A program made the position numbers and the translations under genes. 64,000 nucleotides of DNA from Ilex aquifolium. Taxonomy: Eukaryota; Streptophyta; Magnoliopsida; Aquifoliales; Aquifoliaceae. Positions within the stretch are counted from its first letter, which is position 1. The number at the start of each line of letters is the position of its first letter. The notes under the pieces are model-generated. The model saw only the letters and a program-made list of their open reading frames with translations, was not told where the DNA came from and did no database searches. The stretch covers positions 8,051,001-8,115,000 of the forward strand of contig OX637397.1 in NCBI GenBank assembly GCA_951799425.1. Direction: 5' to 3'. Positions 25,757 through 43,300 of this stretch are shown here, piece by piece.

Positions 25757-26599
25757 TATAATATAAAACATGACAGTTTTCAATAAATTAATTCGACAAT
25801 CTTAAATAAACTTATCCAACGGTCACTAACGTTTGTTAAAGCCATTCACATTCATATTGCACGGGTTACCCTAGTATTGATATAAAAAACATTCCTAATA
25901 GTCAACCGAAATCTTATTGTACACAAATGAAAATGTTATTTAGAACTAATTTATTAGGAAAATGCTATTTGGACCTAAAAATCTGACATAATTTGCTGAC
26001 CTAATGACGTGGCTTCATTGGAATCATTGAATTAACACCAAGTTCCAATGTTTGATGGAGCCCACAGTCAATCTAAAGGTCATAGTGAATTAGGTCAGCA
26101 AATTAGGTCCCAATAGCATTGCTCTATTTATTATAGTCTTTAGGGTAAATTACACTCACACCCCCTGACTTTTGGGTTTATTACACGGACACCCCCTCAC
26201 ATTTGAAAAATTACACTGAGACCCCAATAGTTAGACGGAGTTAACTGCCTTGATAAAAAGACTATTTTGCCCCTCCCTTTAACACACACTTAAATCCAAA
26301 CCCCAAACCCAACGTTTTCATCATCTTCTCCAGTCTCCACCTTGACTCTCTCTCTCTCTCTCTCACTCACTCACTCTTTCTCTCTCACTCTCTCATACCC
26401 TCAAGGCGAAGAATGAGGTCGAAATCGTCGGTTTATCTCTGTTTTTCTGTGTATATATATATACAAACACACACACACACACACACACACACAACAGATC
26501 TAGGATCATATCCCAGATCTAATTCCTTGCTTGAGCAATGATCGAAGACTTGGAGTTTTCAAATCTAGGGCTGGTGGTGAACTGTGGAATCTAATCTTA

Positions 26600-26925
26600 G
26601 GAGGGGTGGTTAAAGGTTTGGCTAGGGGTCTGGGTATTGGGTTGCGATGGGGTTAAACGGCAGACTTAGTCTGAGTGAGAGAGAGAGACCTGGTTTGGTG
26701 GTGGTTGGTGTCTGGGTATTGGGTTGCGATGGCGTTTGAAGGACAGACGTAGTGAGAGAGAGAGTGTGTTGGTTTGGTGGTGGTTGGTGTCTGGGTGGCG
26801 GTGGTGTTGGATTTACAGATCTGGTAATTTTTCGAAACCCACCGCAGTGGTGGCGGTGGTGTTGGATTTACGGATCTGGTTCTGTGTAATTTTCGAAACC
26901 CACCATAGTGGTGGTAGGGGCAGTG
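26600..26925 (+). repeat. Second set of tandem repeats in the same MULE
   Basis: GGTTTGGTGGTGGTTGGTG with GTCTGGGTATTGGGTTGCGA recurs around 26625-26790, and GTTGGATTTACGGATCTGGT with TTTTCGAAACCCACC occurs twice around 26807-26915. Confidence 0.75.
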
Positions 26926-26959
26926 CTCTATGTATGTGTGTGAAGAGAGAGAGAGAGGA

Positions 26960-27045
26960 GGAGGAGGAAGAGGAGGTGGTGGTGGTTTCCGTGGTGTGGA
27001 GGCGGCGATGGGTGGTGATTAACTGATGGTGGATTTGGGACAAAT

Positions 27046-27097
<52 letters not shown>

Positions 27098-27285
27098 GTG
27101 GTGGTGGTTTCCGTGGTGTGGAGACGGCGATGGGTGGTGATTAACTGTGATGGTGGATTTGGGACAAATCTGAGAGAAAGAGAGAGAGAGGAGGAGGAGG
27201 AGGAGGTTGTGGTGGTTTTCGTGGTGTGGAGGCGGCGATGAGTGGTGATTAACAGTGATGGTGGATTTGGGACAAATCTGATTTA
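26960..27285 (+). repeat. Three tandem units inside the MULE
   Basis: Three copies of a roughly 75-80-bp unit reading GTGGTGGTTTCCGTGGTGTG, GGTGGTGATTAACTG, then GATGGTGGATTTGGGACAAA, separated by GA tracts of different length (the longest about 27053-27095). Length changes in the GA tracts point to slippage or unequal exchange. Confidence 0.85.
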
Positions 27286-27648
27286 TAAATGGAATTTACA
27301 TTAATATGTTGTATAATAAACAAAAAAATTTAGTATTTAACTTATTAATTTGATAGATTATGAAATATAAAATAGATAAATAATAAATGAGAGATGAAAT
27401 AAATTCAGGAGTAAGAAATAATAAATTTTTAAACTTAATTTTGAAGGGTATTTTTGGTATTCTATAAATTATTATTGATGACATCAGTTTTAACGGTGAA
27501 CCATTTTAACGTCTGTTAGTTGGAGGGGTGTGGTTGTTATAAGTTTTAAATGTCGAGGGAGTTTTGTGTAATTTTTGAAACATGAGGGGGTGTCCGTGTA
27601 ATAAACTCAAAAGTCAGGGGGTGTGAGTGTAATTTACCCTAGTCTTTA

Positions 27649-27856: not shown

Positions 27857-30800
27857 ATGGAAGTATTCGGAGGCTCTGCTTCTTCTTCGGCTTCGTTATC
27901 TCCATCGTTTGGAGTTTACAATGTCCACAGAAACCCTAATTTCTCTCCCAAGGTACTCTTTCAGTATCACTCTCTGTTTGGTTGCTGAGGAAACCTAAAA
28001 AATAAAAATAAAAAAAAGTGAAAAAGAAGAGAAATAAGTGAAGAAAGCTTTGGATATTATTGCTTGATCTTTAGATTCTGAAAGCATTATACTTTCGTTC
28101 ATGTTCTGGATTATCAAAACAGATATAATTGTTCGTACAAAATTAAAAAACCTGAATATTAGTTAATTGTGTTTACGGGTCTTTCCTGATTCGATGACTA
28201 TTGAAAATTATGCTGTACATAACAGAAATATTGTTATTGCATTTGCAAAACGTTATTACAAGTGAGCTCTATCATGTTTGCAAAGTTTTGTGTGGTATTA
28301 GGATGTCTAAATGTTCCTGTAAATATGTGTTTAGTTGGACACAAGCGTAAGAAAGATCAAATGTGTTTAGAAAAGCTGGCCATTAAGAAAAATTGGATGA
28401 GGATAAAATGGACGGAGTCAACAAACGGATGATAGAAGGTGCTTGATAGCCTTTCTGGTAGAGTGTTTAGTACACACCAATGACCTGGGATGAAATCCCT
28501 CTGTGGGTTTGAAGGGATTTATGTGTTAGGGTAGGTCTACCCTTCCTGCGTAGCATTGCTTTTGTAGCCCAAAACTAGGCCTGACAATTCCTAGTATGAT
28601 CAGCCAAATATACTCAATTGACTCGAAGTTATCGGATCTGAGTTTTGCCCATTGTTTTAAAAACCGGCCCTGCCCGGCGGGTTAGCCCAGAGAATTGTCC
28701 AACTAGCACCTAAACTGGGCCGGATTTGAAGTTGGATTGTTCAAGCCATTCACCCGCCTAAAACCCATTCAAACCGGCCTAGACCGGATGAATTTTATAA
28801 ATTCCGTTAAAATCGGTCGATTTTCTCAAATTCGGACCGGACTTTAAAATATTTAAATTTTCACTACCTATCCAGTTGGACCACCTCATTCATAGCAGCC
28901 CAGCCCAATAAAAGAAATGAAGTGCGCTTCTTATAAGGTCATTTCCACTTCTTACTCAAATTTAAATTTGAGTAAAAATATACTAAAAATAAGTTTCAAT
29001 CTTTGACTCAAATCTATACCAAATGAAGAAAAACTCAAATTTTTACTCAAATTAAGGCAGACTCAAACTTTTACTCAAATCTTCAATGGTTAGATTTTAC
29101 TCTTTTAAAATATTTAAATCTTTCTTTAAATTTGAGTTTCTCTTCTTTAAATTTGAGTTTGTCCATTTGAGTGTTTTGTATCAAATCAAGTTTTTTACTC
29201 ATTTTTTTTATTCAAATTTGAGTTTGAGCTTGGGTTAACATTGGAGATGCCCTAAGACAAACACTTCTCTCCTATTCTGGTTGCTTTCTGATGTGGGATG
29301 TCAGGTAGTGTGATTAAATTGTCCAAGTTCTTGTGATATTTTTTCAAAGCCTTGTAGTGTACTTTTGGCTATTTTTTTTTCTTTTTATCTATTTTGTTTT
29401 TTAGGGTCATCACATTGTTACTATTTATGCCAAATATTCAATGGTTATTAGTGATTTTTTTTGTGTTCTATCAAATTATATCAATTGTGTGAGCAAATTA
29501 ATGACTTAGGGATATTTTTTTGTCATTTTAGTTCGTCTATTATAACATAAAACATGTTATTGTTGTAACTAATATAATCTTTTAACATATTCATTACTAT
29601 TATAATTTTTTATTATTATTTATTATATGGCCGGTTCGACCGGTTGATCCACGGTTGAACCAGTAACCCATTGACTCGGTCCCTTAACCGGGTTGGGGTT
29701 CGGGCTAGATTTAAAAACTATGGTTTTGCCTTACGAGTTCTAGTCACAACCGGGTTGACCTGCCAAACCCGTTTAATAAATGTATTAACATGAACTCGGC
29801 TATACACGATACGGATTTTTTTATGCAGGACACGAACCCTGCCATATAAGACCATAAGCAAGTCATGTATGGTTGATCAAATTTTAATACGAACAACTTA
29901 GACATGACATGATCCATTACATAAGATAAAATGAGGGGAAGTCGACATCTGATTAGTCTTTGACACACAATATAAATGAATTATCCGATTGAAGTAGAAG
30001 GTGCAACAGAAAGGTCGAGTCTAACCTAGTTTGAGGCTATGAGCAAGCACTTGATTGCCTTGCAGTTGACTGAAGCTGTATGCTTGAAAATAGCATATTG
30101 GGGATGGCTCCAAGTAGCATCAAATCCATTTTTGCCGCTGATTGGAATGTGGATTCATTTGTTGGAAAGAAGTACGTGCTAACTGTTATGAGCTGATTTT
30201 CCATGCTAGCACAATGAGTGGTCTGGTCAAACATCCTCAATTCTGATTCTGATGCATGTTGGTGTATTTAACAGTGAAAGTTGGCAGCGATACCTGCACA
30301 ATATGATATGATCATATGAACCTGTTTTGTGCATGATTTCCGAAGTTATTGGATACTGATTTAAGTCGGGGCACTCATTTGATTGACAACAAGTGCCTAG
30401 TTTAACTGAAGCTTTATCTTTTTGTCTCGGAGATGCACACAACTTGGATTGTTCGCTACTTCGAACTGGCATTTCTTTCAAGATTTCTGAAAACCAGATC
30501 ATTGCCACTCTCTGAGCTAGAGTAACTTGTCAAACAAAGTCATAAGTCACATGATGAGCTTGTGCTTATCAATTTGATGGATTCAAACTGGCGGTCCTTT
30601 TTTCTTATTATCATCTGCCGATTGAATAGAAAAAGATTGTGTAACTTAACATCTCCTATTACTAGAAAGTTTCCATTACGGCTTTATGTCATGTGGAGAT
30701 TTTAAACGTTGTAAATAACATTTCAGGTAGTGAATTTTCAATTGGACTAAATGCAGGTGCTGCCCTGGAATTCCCTATTTGTGATGACTGTAGAAATTCG

Positions 30801-33800
30801 ATTACGAAGTTCCCTCTCTTGTATAAGCAAGAAAGCCATTGACCGACCAGGAAGTTGTTACCCATTTTGCTGCATAGGAGATTACACACACAGATTCTTT
30901 ATCCAGTCGGATTGGATGCAAAATAAAAGATTTACATCTCAGCGTGGTTGGCTTTTGATCAGGAAATCTACGTCCAGTTTTCAGAATGCAGTGAAAGGTT
31001 TTGAAAACTTCAAAAATACCGTCCCCGTTCTTTTTGTACGGCTTGTTGTTGGAGTATTGGTGTTTACAACATTTAGTATTGCTGTTAGCCGAACTCCTTC
31101 CTGTAAGTTTGAATATTCTATCAAATCAAATAATGTTTTGGCATTGGTTTGGAGTGAGAAGAACCTCTATGAGAATGGCTTTTTACTTCATTCTCTGTTA
31201 CAACACTTAAATACTATCATTGTGCAGTGGCCCTCAGTGAAGAGAATCTCCTTTTCTTGGAGGCTTGGAGAACAATTGACCGTGCCTACGTTGACAAAAC
31301 TTTCAATGGTCAAAGTTGGTTTAGGTACAGGGAAAATGCACTGCGCAATGAACCAATGACTACACGAGAAGAGACATGTATGCCTTTTCATTTTTTGTTG
31401 TTATTTCGCTGTGGTGGTTTGCATGCATCCTACTTGTATCTGTATGCAGTTACAGAAAATTTGTACACCTCAAATATTCACTATCTTGGTAAGTTGGCAT
31501 TAGGTCTGCAAACACAAACAAATTCTATTGATTTAATTTGTTTAGGTAGAACAAAGATCTGCACTGACCTCGGCGACTGTAAATTGCGATAATTTTATAT
31601 CATATTTGATAGGTATGTTTTTATGCTAATTTGAAGTGTTAACCAATAACCAGTAGTGCTTCCGGTTATGGTTTTTCGGTGCCAAGTTCTTGTTTTACTT
31701 GAACCAAAATAATAGGACCTATAAAGTTTTGTTCTTAATGCTATTTCGAATTTGGAATTACATACTAAAAAAATTGTTGTCTTGTTGATGGTCTAACCTA
31801 TGCAATCGTATTTATCATCCAGATATAGCCATATAGGTGCTTTAATTCATGATAGGCTTTGCACGGGCATGATTGAGGAAAGAAAATGTTGTCCTGCATT
31901 CAGTTGAATTAACACGTAAATAATGAAAGTGAGAACCTAAATTAGGTCAACCACATAAGGCTGTTGTGTCTTAATGTAACTCAATTCAATTTATCTCAAT
32001 TGTGTAACCTTTTTTGACCTGTTCTAGTGGTCTGTAGACTTCTTAAACTGCTTTTCCATCTTTTTACATGTACCGGCTGCCTAAATCCGGGTTCTGTGTT
32101 TGCATTTAGATGTGGCGATAAGGAAGATGCTTGCTACTCTGGATGACCCTTTCACCCGGTTTTTGGAGCCTGAAAAGTTTAAGAGTCTGCGGGTACGGGG
32201 ATGTTTCTTCACATCTTTTTTATAGATTACTGCATCTTTGGGTGAACTACATACCAAAATATGTATTAATTTTATGTAGCAGTTCCTGCTTCAAAGGAAT
32301 TTAGTGTTTTCAGATGTTATTCCTAAATTCTCTTAATGCGTTCTTTGAAGGCAGTCAGGAACACAAAGTGCTCTTACGGGAGTAGGTTTAATATGTATTA
32401 ATTTTATGTAGCAGTTCCTCCTTCAAAGGAATTTAGTGTTTTCAGATGTTATTCCTAAATTCTCTTAATGCGTTCTTTGAAGGCAGTCAGGAACACAAAG
32501 TGCTCTTACGGGAGTAGGTTTGTCAATTGGCTATCCCACAGGAAATGATGGATCTACAGCTGGACTGGTGGTTATTTCAGCTGCTCAAGGAGGTCCTGCG
32601 AATAGGGCTGGCATTTCATCTGGGGACGTAATTCTGGCAATTGACAATACGAGTACAGAAGCGATGGGCATATATGATGCTGCGGAACGCTTGCAGTGAG
32701 TTTTCTTCTAATATGCTCGCTAAATGAAATGCAATGCTGCTTTCCAATAGAGTAGCATACATTAATGAAGTTGCAATTTATTAGAAGACCTGTTCTTAAA
32801 TCACTAGAAAAGCAGCACAAAGGGAAGGAAATATTTGCTTTGTTTGCCTCATTTGCCATGTTGAAAGATTAAGTACACCCAACGTTGGTTTATATATTTG
32901 AGGGGTCACTCCACCCATTAACAATTGGTTAATTGGTTTTGGGTTGGATGCTCTAAAATGGTATTAGAATTGGGCCTTCGGTGGTGTAGTCTGTCATGGT
33001 TGAGTTAGTTGCGAGAAATATCTTAACTGTGCAATTATTTTCAATGTAGTCTCAAGTCCCACTGGAACCCCTGTATTCTAGTTGGTACCTTAGTTGGACA
33101 TCAAAGGGATTATTCATTCAGCAACATTGCTACTCTTTGTAGGAAATAAGACTCCGGCAAGGATAAAAAAGGGTAGAGGATAGCATTTGAAACATAGATC
33201 TTTAAGGCATGCCAATATCCTTGGTGCAGCAACTTGGCATTTGGGTTTCCATTTTTCCCCTTATCCACTTCTTTTATTGGAGATCTGCAGTATTTTTAGT
33301 TTTTCTTGATATTATTGTTTAAAACCCGGTGGATCATAGAATGCCCCATCTTTGTGGTATTATTCTTCTGTTAAGTATGGTCTTCTCTTGACATACGATA
33401 GTTTTTGTTGAAGTATAAATACTTAAGTTACACCTTCTCCAATAGCTTAAGCTTTTGAAGTAGGTGGTTGTTTAACATAGTATCAAAGCAGGAGATCTTA
33501 TGTTCGAATCTCGCCGTCACCCTAATTATTAAAAAGATTTTCATGTGCTAGGCCCAAAATCTAGCATGTACGTGGGGGCATGTTGAAGTGTAAATACTTA
33601 AGTTTCACCATCTTCAACGGCATAAACTTTTGGAGTAGATGGTTGTTTAACAGTTTCTATTGTGAATTTTCCAAAATTTTGAATTGGATACATTCACATT
33701 TGCTATTATTATAATGCAAGCTGAATTCCCTCTCTCTCACTCACACACAGGCAAGCACCAACCAAAGAAACATTTTTGTTTAAAGTAAATAATTGTCTAC

Positions 33801-36800
33801 TTCTTTAGAGATTGTACATTCTTAACCAATTTGAATGTTGAAAAGCTCAAAGGCTGACAATGCATATTATTCATGATATATACATCTTCTTTTGAAAAGC
33901 TAAACTAAACACTTCTAAATACTATCATAGGTAAGTTCATGGTTATCCATTAGTGTAATTATCTTACAGTTCTACGTTTTCAGATAGAATGAACCAATCA
34001 GACCAAAAATAGTAAGATAGAATGGACCAGGAGAATCTGTCTTGATCTTGAGCCATGCAGTTCAAACCTACATGTAAGAATACATGTCTTAACATGAAAA
34101 GAAATTATGAAATGCAGGGGACCCGAAGGAAGTGCAGTGGAACTCACAGTTCGTAGTGGACCCTTGATAAGGCACCTATCTTTGACGTAAGTACATCTCA
34201 TTCTCTTTCTTGAATTAGTTGCAAGCTTCACATCCTGCAGAAGTTGAATATGCATTAGCTAAAATGACCCCAAGTCAAGGTGGTGCGGATCAAATAGAAA
34301 TTAGGTAAAGCATAAAATATATTCTGTTATTTAGGGTTTACTGGTATATTTATCAGTTTAGGAACTAAATATTATTTTCTGTTTTAGTTTTGGTAACTGT
34401 TAATTAGTGTTTTCAGTGTTGCCTACAAATAGGCCTTATATGTGATGGTTTTGGTACATGACTTGAGTATTGAACTGAATAAAATATTGTATTGGGGATT
34501 GTTATCCTGTTTCTTTTGTTCTTTTTCTTCTTGATTTCTAGTCTTCGTGAATTTGGCCCTCTTCGCCTCATTCGTTCTCAATTCCTTAAGCACAATGATT
34601 CTTCTTCTTGTCCTCTGTCACAGGGTCTGTTTTGTGTATGCTTCAAAAAATTAAGCATTAAAGCTATGCTGCATCCGTTAGAGCATCTAACTGATAACCA
34701 ATAGCCAATTAGTGGAGAGGCCTGTTAAGCATATAAACCAACATTAGGTGGTCCTAATCATTCGAGTGGAATACAAGCTCTATTTACAGCCTCTACCTCG
34801 TATGTCAGTGAAAATGTTGCTTGTAAGTTTTTTTCTTTGGGGCTGGGGTAGAGGCTGGCAAGGATATTATGTCTTTTCAGTCATAAAATTGTTTTATGTC
34901 ATTTCTCTTTTCATAGGGAATTCTCGTCCATCTTAGACTTTGTATCTTTCCTTTGTTTAGGACAATTTCTGGTTGTTTACCCCATAGGGAGAATATTATA
35001 TAGGAAAGAGAGAAACAAATGTTGGTGATGTTGTTTTGAAGCATATTTTTGCACTTCTGTTATAAGCTATTAAGATATTAAATATGTGACATGTGTATAT
35101 GGATATGCTGTTTTGCTAGAACTTACGAACTAACCAACTGCTGCTTTGCAGAAGAGAGAAAGTTTCATTGAATCCAGTAAAGTCAAGAATCTGCGAGACA
35201 CCTGGTTTGGGGAAAGATGCCCCCAGAATAGGATACATCAAGCTTACTTCATTCAACCAAAATGCCTCTGGTATTGTGCAGCTACTTGTTATCAGTTAGT
35301 TTTCAGGATTTACACACTTTTTATCGGTGTTTTCTTTGTTGAATTTACACACAAAATTATATCATTAAATCTTGGTTTTCAACCCCTATGCAGAATTCAT
35401 CCATGTCTTCTATGTTTTTCTGTTTTATTCTTTTGTGGGTCATTCCTCTTTATCTAGGGCGTATGTTATGTATAATTATAGCTACTCATTTGCTACCTAA
35501 CTTAATCCTATTTTATATCCTTCTCAACTACATTCAATCCATTTCTTAAGTCCATAATCGGTCATATTATACATTATCTAACCCTTGTATGTCGAGATTT
35601 TTTTTTTTGCACTTATTAACCTTGCTGCGGATTTAGACATAGATTTATTATTTTCTTTTTCTATCCTTGAATGTTCTATTTTAAAGATTTTTTGCCATCA
35701 ACCTTGCTTAATGCTTCGTGGTGGTTATGAATACTATTTTGACAAAAGCAGTAAGCCTACATTTTAAGAATTTTATATCCTGGGTCCTGTTGCAAATTGA
35801 CCCACTGTGGATTTGATGGATGCATAATCTACCAATTACCATGAACTGTGTTAAACTTTCGTTTTTTTTCACTCTAATGGTTTAGTATGTTACAGCATTT
35901 GTTCTTAAATGCGAAAAGTGTATTTCAGTGGTCCAAGTACACATGCTCTTTGTAGGTGCTGTAAAAGAAGCAATTGAAACTTTAAGGAGAAACAACGTTG
36001 ATGCCTTTGTGTTAGACCTTCGAGATAATAGGTGATATGCTTAAACATTAGGTGATATGCTTAAACATGCTTCATTTTGAACTTCTACTTGAACAGATTT
36101 TCTGAAAAAACTAAATTTGGTGCAGTGGTGGTCTTTTTCCTGAAGGAATTGAGATTGCCAAGATTTGGTAAGCTTTATTGGTGGATTTGTTTTATGCATC
36201 ATGAAATGAGTTTCCTTTTCTTCTGCCAGTTAATTTGGTATTGCCAAGATTTGGTAAGATTTTTAGGCAGATTTGTTTTATTTGTCATGAAATTAGTTTC
36301 CTTGCCAGTCAATTTGGTATCATTTTGCTGGTGTTGTGGATTATTTTGGCTGCTCGTTTACGTGTAGGTAGTATGAAGTTATTTACCGTTCATTTTTCCT
36401 TTTGAGATATTTTATTTACTTGCTGTATATCAGTTATTGGTCTGAAATAGACCAGTTCTGTTCTACTCAATGCGTTTGCAGCTAACTAATCCTACTTGTT
36501 CACGTGCATTTTTTGTATCTTAGTAGCACCAGTCCTTCCAGCTATAGTGAGTATTCTCTTTACCTGCAATTTCTTCCCTTTGTTTGATTTTAATGTCAGA
36601 TGTACCCCAATTTGTTGTAGGTTGGACAAGGGTGTGATTGTGTACATTTGTGACAGTCGTGGTGTTCGTGATATATATGACACAGATGGAAGCAATGCAA
36701 TAGCAGCTTCAGAACCCCTAGCTGTGCTGGTATGGTAACTTACGTCTAAACTGATATGGTTTGGACTCAATATCCTCAGAGCTTTCACCAACTTTTGTAA

Positions 36801-37563
36801 AGATGTATGATATAAAGCTGTGATTATTTTATTAGGCTTTACATTTAGCTCCTATAATTGAGGTTTTGGTGAAAGAGGTTTATGCTTTATCCAGGACTGT
36901 GTTCCATGGCCTCTTTTTCACTGCTCTGCTGTCTACATGCTGAGTGACCATGATCCTTTTTTCTTGGGTTGTAATACTGTTTGTTTGGAAAAATGACTAA
37001 ACTTCCTTTTTCCATTTCCAAATCTGTAATACTGGAACATTTTCCATTGTGGATATTTATTTGGTTCCACCATGGCTAGCTATCTTGAACTTTTTCTCAT
37101 GTTCAATAGCTGACTCAGGATGTCTGATGGTGCTTCTCTTAGTTTCTCTACTTCCTCCCCTTCTCAAAGAAACAAAATCAGCAATCATCTCTCCTCTCAC
37201 CTTAAACCTTGGAAGGCTCATTTTTCGATCCTACACAAAAGAATTGACAACTTGACATCTTATGCTTTTGTTAGGTGAACAAAGGAACTGCAAGTGCAAG
37301 CGAAATTTTAGCTGGTGCATTGAAAGACAATAAACGCGCAGTGCTGCTAGGAGAACCCACATTTGGGAAAGGGTAAGATTTTTGCTTAACAATGTATGTC
37401 TGAATTTTAATCATTTATTTCCAACAGGCCTAAACTATCCCCTTTCACAGTAAGATTCAGTCAGTTTTTCAATTATCCGATGGCTCTGGCTTGGCTGTTA
37501 CAGTTGCTCGTTATGAGACACCTGCTCACACTGATATTGACAAGGTCTCTCTCTCTCTCTTAC

Positions 37564-37602
<39 letters not shown>

Positions 37603-37769
37603 ACAGTGTGTGATGGCATCACCTGGTCTTTGCTCTTATCTAGGTTGGCGTAATCCCTGACCATCCTCTACCTGCATCGTTTCCCAAGGATGATGAGAGT
37701 TTTTGCGGCTGCATCCAGGACAGTGCATCTGCTTGCTATCTCAACGGAGTTGAGCTGTTTTCTAGATGA
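27857..37769 (+). CDS. CTPA3: Chloroplast carboxyl-terminal processing peptidase (CtpA/D1P type, CTPA3-like)
   Basis: Thirteen exons: 27857-27952, 30757-31102, 31228-31377, 32110-32192, 32487-32695, 34118-34186, 35152-35270, 35956-36031, 36126-36167, 36621-36729, 37275-37372, 37451-37544, 37644-37769. All junctions are GT-AG with continuous frame; 538 residues. An N-terminal Ser/Arg-rich region is followed by a hydrophobic stretch ([19 protein letters not shown]), as in a lumen-targeting signal. Then come the conserved [16 protein letters not shown] and [12 protein letters not shown], a PDZ domain ([12 protein letters not shown] to about residue 310), and the protease core with [10 protein letters not shown] and PTFGKG. 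These give the Ser440/Lys465 dyad, 25 residues apart as in known D1 peptidases. The end is [19 protein letters not shown]. The family trims precursor D1 of photosystem II or other lumenal proteins. The match to Arabidopsis CTPA3 rather than CTPA1/2 is from memory. Confidence 0.93.
28650..29722. mobile_element. hAT-type non-autonomous transposon in CTPA intron 1
   Basis: Ends CATTGTTTTAAAAACCGG and, inverted, CATAGTTTTTAAATCTAG. The target duplicate GTTTTGCC is an exact 8 bp (28642-28649 and 29723-29730), the hAT length. The subterminal parts are rich in CCGG words (ACCGGCCTAGACCGG near the left; GGCCGGTTCGACCGGT near the right), as in a common plant hAT MITE group. No transposase. It contains the MITE at 28937-29252. 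Confidence 0.9.
28937..29252. mobile_element. Harbinger-like MITE nested in the hAT element
   Basis: 316 bp, left end GGTCATTTCCACTT, right end inverted GGGCATCTCCAATGT, flanked by TAA at 28934-28936 and 29253-29255. Inside, ACTCAAATTTAAATTTGAGT is a perfect palindrome and AAATTTGAGT recurs several times. The TAA duplicate suits PIF/Harbinger. Because it interrupts the hAT element it is the younger of the two. Confidence 0.75.
32258..32521 (+). repeat. 132-bp tandem duplication across an intron/exon junction
   Basis: Copy 1 at 32258-32389 and copy 2 at 32390-32521 differ by a single base that I can see (CCTGCTTC against CCTCCTTC). Each has the branch/acceptor region and the first 35 bases of exon 5 of the CTPA-type gene. 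The real exon must start in copy 2 (32487), because use of the copy-1 acceptor (32355) runs into TAG at 32409-32411 after 18 codons. Confidence 0.97.
33406..33652 (+). mobile_element. TRIM retroelement in CTPA intron 5
   Basis: Two 72-bp terminal direct repeats, 33406-33477 and 33581-33652, both TGTTGAAG...TTTAACA (TG/CA ends). After the first comes TAGTATCAAAGC, a diverged initiator-tRNA-Met primer site. Before the second is a purine tract, GTGGGGGCA. Flanks GTTTT and GTTTC match at 4 of 5 bases. The 247-bp whole has no coding room, which defines a TRIM. Same orientation as the gene. Confidence 0.85.
37569..37598 (+). repeat. TG microsatellite in the last CTPA intron
   Basis: About 15 TG units, preceded by a CT run at 37546-37560 that starts at the donor site of exon 12. 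Confidence 0.9.
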
Positions 37770-42712: not shown

Positions 42713-43300
42713 TTGCCTTTTCCAAGTTCCAACATTATGGGATTATCCTCTCCCCTAGCTAGAGAACATACAATATAGTAAACCAATCTTGAGATTTTTT
42801 TATTTTTTATTTAAATGTTATTTATATTTAATTTGGATCCTAATTAACTATAATGGTCGATGATGAATGATTTTTTTGATCAAATTAGGGAAGAGATTAA
42901 TTAACGTGATGTAATTTGGACATTATTATCGTTAAACTAAAAAAAAACTCACAATACTAACCACCAAGTGAGGTTGCATTTTTCATCATTTTTTTCGAAG
43001 AAAAATCTATAATATAATACAAGATATATTTTAATAAGCTCATCCGACGGTCTCAAATAAATTTATTGAACGACCATCAACATCTCTATCAAAATTATTC
43101 ACATTATACCGTGTCTTCAGACACGAGTTACTCTTAGTCTAAAATATAAAACAAGACAGACCTCAATAAGTTTATCCGACAGTCTCAAATATATTCATTC
43201 AACAGCTACCAACATTTCTCTCAAAATTATTTATATTGCACCGTATTTTTAGACACGAATTACACTTAGGATAGTATAAACATTAAGACGACGTCGTTTG
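42713..43300. other. Gene-to-gene spacer with decayed Helitron-like termini
   Basis: Short divergent spacer between the minus-strand plastid protein gene and SMAP1. The hairpin GTGTCTTCAGACAC at 43111-43124 followed by GAGTTACTCTTAG, and a second such segment around 43229-43259, resemble the Helitron 3' terminus at 25730-25756, with the shared phrase TTATCCGACAGTCTCAAAT between them. Two old tandem ends are likely. Confidence 0.5.
43288..43297. promoter_or_regulatory. ACGACGTCGT palindrome upstream of SMAP1
   Basis: Perfect 10-bp palindrome with a GACGTC (bZIP C-box) core, 96 bp upstream of the SMAP1 ATG. The same word is in the right arm of the MULE at 46579-46588 and, with one change, in the left arm at 45768-45777. 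Confidence 0.5.

Follow-up and report, generated by a model that had tools for sequence, protein, structure and literature searches.

Tandem duplication of an intron–exon junction places two locally identical acceptors before exon 5 of a predicted CtpA-type protease gene in Ilex aquifolium

What becomes of a gene when the end of one of its introns and the start of the next exon are repeated head to tail? A stretch of 64,000 nucleotides from Ilex aquifolium (hereafter the window; C7:8051001–8115000, 36.4% GC, zero N) poses this question in a predicted protease gene, in which a 132-bp segment occurs twice in succession across the junction of intron 4 and exon 5. Among the ways in which new introns have been proposed to arise is duplication across a splice junction. 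As the two copies here differ at a single base far from the splice site, the choice between their acceptors would be set almost wholly by position and context.

The gene model (Table 1) was drawn by eye from the sequence and verified by translation; all 12 introns of this predicted structure are of the GT-AG type. Pfam searches of the predicted protein returned a peptidase S41 domain (PF03572, E 1.3e-53) and a PDZ_6 domain (E 2.3e-11), and residues 151–525 align colinearly with the photosystem II D1 protease in PDB entry 1fc6 (E 1.1e-120), a combination that identifies the predicted product as a D1 C-terminal processing protease and upholds the CTPA-type label given to the gene in an earlier sequence-only reading. 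By similarity, the 538-aa product probably corresponds to Arabidopsis At4g17740. Arabidopsis has three homologs (At4g17740, At3g57680 and At5g46390), and the At4g17740 mutant is reported to be stunted and yellowish, with D1 maturation absent (PMC7896377). A protein search of the Ilex assembly gave 15 matches among the best candidates scored: 12 were stretches of the CtpA gene itself, leaving three on C15 and C3 that were partial (53–70% identical) and look like old paralogs. As no second close copy appeared among these candidates, there is no sign of a backup that might buffer mis-splicing, and the gene therefore probably still makes enough normal mRNA. Upstream lies an element of ~1.5 kb (window positions 26141–27641) with 76-nt inverted repeats (95% complementary), ending ~200 bp before the CtpA start codon; it looks like a non-autonomous inverted-repeat element.

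The two copies of the duplicated unit stand head to tail, ungapped, and are identical at 131 of 132 positions, the sole difference (G32288 versus C32420) falling 67 nt ahead of the first exon base. The array comprises exactly 2.0 units, and the flanking bases at each edge do not extend the repeat, so the duplication junction is free of microhomology. Each unit holds an acceptor and the first 35 bases of exon 5, as had been claimed from the letters alone: the exon 5 acceptor of the gene model lies at 32486/32487 in copy 2 and its twin at 32354/32355 in copy 1, giving intron 4, measured from its donor, a length of either 294 or 162 nt. A branch-like TCTTAAT starts at −24 in both copies. The 35-nt exon piece (32355–32389 and 32487–32521) had a mean expectation of 0.00 in 100 shuffles and no third occurrence in the window at up to three mismatches. 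In a search of the whole assembly (800,232,872 bases in 103 contigs), the 132-bp unit matched just these two places among the best candidates scored, and a transposon or other repeat was rejected as its source, no further genome match having been found among those candidates. Elsewhere in the window, at an unrelated position (43006–43269), there is another exactly two-copy tandem repeat with a 132-bp unit, 79% identical; the shared unit size is probably chance.

Table 1 Features of the CtpA-type gene and of its duplicated junctions (window coordinates).
Feature	Coordinates	Strand	Remarks
CtpA-type (S41) protease gene	27857–37769	+	13 exons, 538 aa, intact; joined exons form a single open frame
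Exon 4	32110–32192	+	Gene model; donor 32192/32193
Tandem unit, copy 1	32258–32389	+	97 nt of intron end, 35 nt identical to exon 5 start
Candidate in-frame microexon, 27 nt (SGTQSALTG)	32355–32381	+	Copy-1 acceptor with GTAGGT donor at 32382
Candidate newborn intron, 105 nt	32382–32486	+	8 nt of exonic origin (GTAGGTTT) and 97 intronic nt of copy 2
Candidate AG/GT...AG/GT intron, 132 nt (Rogers type)	32386–32517	+	Excision gives exact normal protein
Tandem unit, copy 2	32390–32521	+	97 nt from the end of the intron, then the authentic 35-nt start of exon 5
TAG stop	32409–32411	+	Translation; copy-1 acceptor without further removal
Exon 5 (copy-2 acceptor)	32487–32695	+	Linker and PDZ start; ungapped against 1fc6 over the exon 4/5 join
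Tandem duplication, 20 bp × 2, identical	36029–36068	+	Doubles exon 8 donor; donors 36031/36032 and 36051/36052
Tandem duplication, unit ~86 bp, 81% identical with gaps	36154–36320	+	Doubles exon 9 end and donor

Splicing to the copy-2 acceptor gives the normal protein, ungapped against 1fc6, and the earlier statement that this copy keeps the PDZ frame agrees with the intact, colinear product. A transcript spliced to the copy-1 acceptor and read straight on would meet its first stop, TAG 32409, after 243 residues. The sequence-only reading had predicted this stop and a truncated protease; the stop is there, but it is not the only outcome of using copy 1, and a stable truncated protein is not the likeliest product. 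Eight introns of the gene model lie downstream of TAG 32409 and, under the 50–55-nt rule for nonsense-mediated decay, such an mRNA would more likely be degraded than yield a stable truncated protease. Two further routes would escape the stop. The first would keep the 27-nt microexon and remove the 105-nt intron behind it, adding 27 nt and nine residues with the frame kept and, by translation, zero new stops. The second would pair the copy-1 acceptor with a GTTTAA donor at 32386 and the AG at 32517, leaving the protein unchanged; joined instead to the copy-2 acceptor, the same donor would add 31 nt and shift the frame.

The two candidate donors were compared, by U1 pairing energy in a fixed donor register, with the 12 native donors of the gene (−8.9 to −0.6 kcal/mol) and with 627 GT sites of the gene region. 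GTAGGT at 32382 pairs at −4.8 kcal/mol and beats four of the 12 native donors, but 8.3% of the GT sites pair no less strongly; GTTTAA at 32386 pairs at −4.0 kcal/mol, beats one native donor and is equalled or exceeded by 16.3% of GT sites. With that many GT sites matching or exceeding them, neither is compelling by pairing alone. Six of six intronic bases of GTAGGT are able to pair with U1, against one of its three exonic bases.

As for the acceptors, the earlier description of them as equal holds locally, given a single difference 67 nt upstream, but not for what follows them. The copy-1 acceptor leads into an exon-like stretch of 35 nt (45.7% GC), beyond which AU-rich intron resumes (30.9% GC), whereas copy 2 is followed by the rest of exon 5 (48.9% GC); this exon context would favour the copy-2 acceptor. 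The copy-1 acceptor is the nearer of the two to the exon 4 donor (162 versus 294 nt), which could promote its use.

We favour, with moderate confidence, a recent duplication by break repair after which copy 2 is mainly used and copy 1 is predicted to feed a minor, largely unproductive RNA. Error-prone repair of a staggered break, with both ends filled in before end joining, would have doubled the last part of intron 4 together with the first part of exon 5, leaving a 132-bp tandem duplication. Small tandem duplications have been linked to break-end fill-in and joining in human and mouse cells (PMC8355091), and we infer a similar origin here, the duplication junction being sharp and free of microhomology, as such repair of staggered ends would leave it. 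Most productive mRNA would then probably come from splicing to the copy-2 acceptor, with copy 1 discarded inside the 294-nt intron. Probably only a minority of transcripts would be spliced to the copy-1 acceptor; these would yield mainly an early-stop RNA that is likely decayed, with perhaps a little of the in-frame isoform bearing nine extra residues, or normal mRNA by the AG/GT route. We propose that continued access to the original mRNA has allowed the duplication to persist, and that it is probably neutral; should RNA contain copy 2 alone, this would be an ordinary neutral duplication.

Duplications of this kind are ordinary in the genome sampled. Twenty stretches of 10 kb were drawn and 19 were counted (190 kb), omitting low-complexity arrays and one stretch (L003, G000:C7:500001-510000) most of which is occupied by a satellite array with a unit of ~375–380 bp. 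The 190 kb held 13 two-copy tandem duplications with a unit of at least 20 bp and an identity of at least 90%, six having a unit of at least 50 bp and two of at least 100 bp; two of the 13, both in stretch L018, belong to longer arrays, and one of these is among the two with a unit over 100 bp. Assuming a substitution rate of 7e-9 changes per site per year, one difference in 132 places the event ~0.5 million years ago (limits, 0.014–3 million). The C15 and C3 paralogs were too diverged to serve as the ancestral state, and no segment over the exon 4/5 join aligned credibly. Four bacterial relative loci were uninformative on tolerance of a nine-residue insert, the linker pattern matching in none of the four.

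Among the alternatives, incipient intron gain fares best, although we hold it to be unlikely: the 27-nt microexon would be kept and the intron at 32382–32486 removed, so that SGTQSALTG would occur twice ahead of the PDZ domain. Its appeal lies in a geometry like that of a gained intron in potato, in which 10 exonic nucleotides were recruited compared with eight here (PMC4974935), together with the preserved frame and a GTAGGT donor whose full intronic pairing places it above a third of the native donors. The same donor is, however, equalled or exceeded by 8.3% of the GT sites of the region and poorly matched to U1 on its exonic side, 27 nt makes a short exon, and 1fc6 does without the nine added residues. 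That this intron is already at birth, with the copy-1 acceptor, GTAGGT and the copy-2 acceptor in use and a second protein made with a doubled SGTQSALTG linker ahead of the substrate-binding PDZ domain, we consider a little more doubtful still. Were it true, the two donors duplicated elsewhere in the gene, with copies that are identical in one case and 81% alike in the other, would add graded experiments in site choice within the same transcript.

An assembly artefact appears improbable; here two haplotypes, or a single unit counted twice, would have been placed in tandem, the difference being a heterozygous site or a read error. The one difference in 132 (0.76%) falls within the usual range of plant heterozygosity, and tandem mis-assembly around a heterozygous site would leave just such a trace. 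On the other hand, 264 bp is readily spanned by single long reads, the use of which is suggested by the setting of the window (no N, a 42.8-Mb contig, an 800-Mb assembly in 103 contigs); the sampled stretches hold other short tandem duplications over varied identities; and there is no extra copy of the unit in the assembly among the best candidates scored. The earlier suggestion of either a very recent event or an artefact is borne out as to near identity, but the length of the contig and the lack of N in the window make the artefact the less likely of the two. Equally hard to credit is a functional brake, whereby frequent use of the copy-1 acceptor would lower CtpA output through regulated nonsense-mediated decay, for although the acceptors are locally identical with equally distant branch-like motifs, the copy-1 acceptor is nearer the donor and its stop has eight introns downstream, we see no sign of regulation or conservation, exon context would favour copy 2, and heavy loss of a protein whose absence harms Arabidopsis (PMC7896377) would be selected against.

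The recent break-repair duplication that we prefer is not the only doubled splice site in this gene (Table 1). Use of the second exon 8 donor leads at once to a stop (DLRDNR*), as does use of the second of the two exon 9 donors (36167/36168 and 36253/36254; IW*), and at all three duplicated junctions the choice that keeps the protein is the one with the longer intron. The exon 9 duplication is the older one, and its 81% identity suggests that the CtpA gene is able to bear a doubled splice site over a long time. With three duplicated junctions of different ages in one gene, its transcript could serve to test whether the spliceosome holds to the original exon edge. Three of four complex tandem arrays in the gene lie over a junction (chance of at least three of four under random placement, 0.031), or two of three once the exon 5 duplication is removed (0.075); the four were picked by hand, with three others set aside, namely a partial repeat of 21 bp in intron 1 (29122–29160), a TG array in intron 12 (37567–37612) and a non-adjacent repeat pair in intron 5. 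A tendency of tandem duplications to hit splice junctions beyond chance is weakly supported at best. The intron 5 pair (33406–33477 and 33581–33652) consists of 72-bp direct repeats, 86% identical and 103 bp apart, and is not a simple tandem duplication.

Several published systems resemble this locus. In Daphnia, staggered breaks with accompanying direct repeats have been tied to new introns (PMC4202315). The small tandem duplications of PMC8355091 are likewise short, two-copy and head-to-tail with a sharp junction, although they arose at induced breaks in human and mouse cells, whereas the mechanism here is read from the scar, and at 132 bp the Ilex unit exceeds the insertions of under 100 bp named there. 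In the AGGT model of Rogers (1989), exemplified by ATP2A1 (Hellsten et al. 2011; both via PMC4974935), duplicated AG/GT sites bound the new intron; here, too, AG/GT is equally placed in both copies (32384–32387 and 32516–32519) and a 132-nt excision would keep the protein, but the unit is mostly intronic (97 of 132 nt) rather than exonic and its GTTTAA donor pairs weakly with U1.

The closest published case that we found is the potato RdRp gene PGSC0003DMG402000361, which gained an intron by tandem duplication across an intron–exon boundary (Ma, Lan and Niu 2016, PMC4974935), in an article that counts few recently gained introns as proven. There, RNA reads prove splicing, whole-genome sequencing reads back the duplication and a phylogeny places the gain, whereas the case here is one of anatomy; the potato copies differ at ten positions rather than one, and the CtpA gene has two further duplicated junctions, set against a second short duplication (83 bp) in the potato gene, itself a point of likeness. 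In both plants the unit joins an intron's 3′ end to the 5′ start of the exon that follows (97 and 35 nt here), a cryptic donor (here a candidate) lies inside the exon piece of the upstream copy, the first nucleotides of the new intron are recruited from the exon (10 in potato, eight in the candidate), and the downstream copy supplies, or here would supply, the branch site and acceptor. We regard the anatomy of the Ilex duplication as a further instance of this known kind, with intron gain as a possibility.
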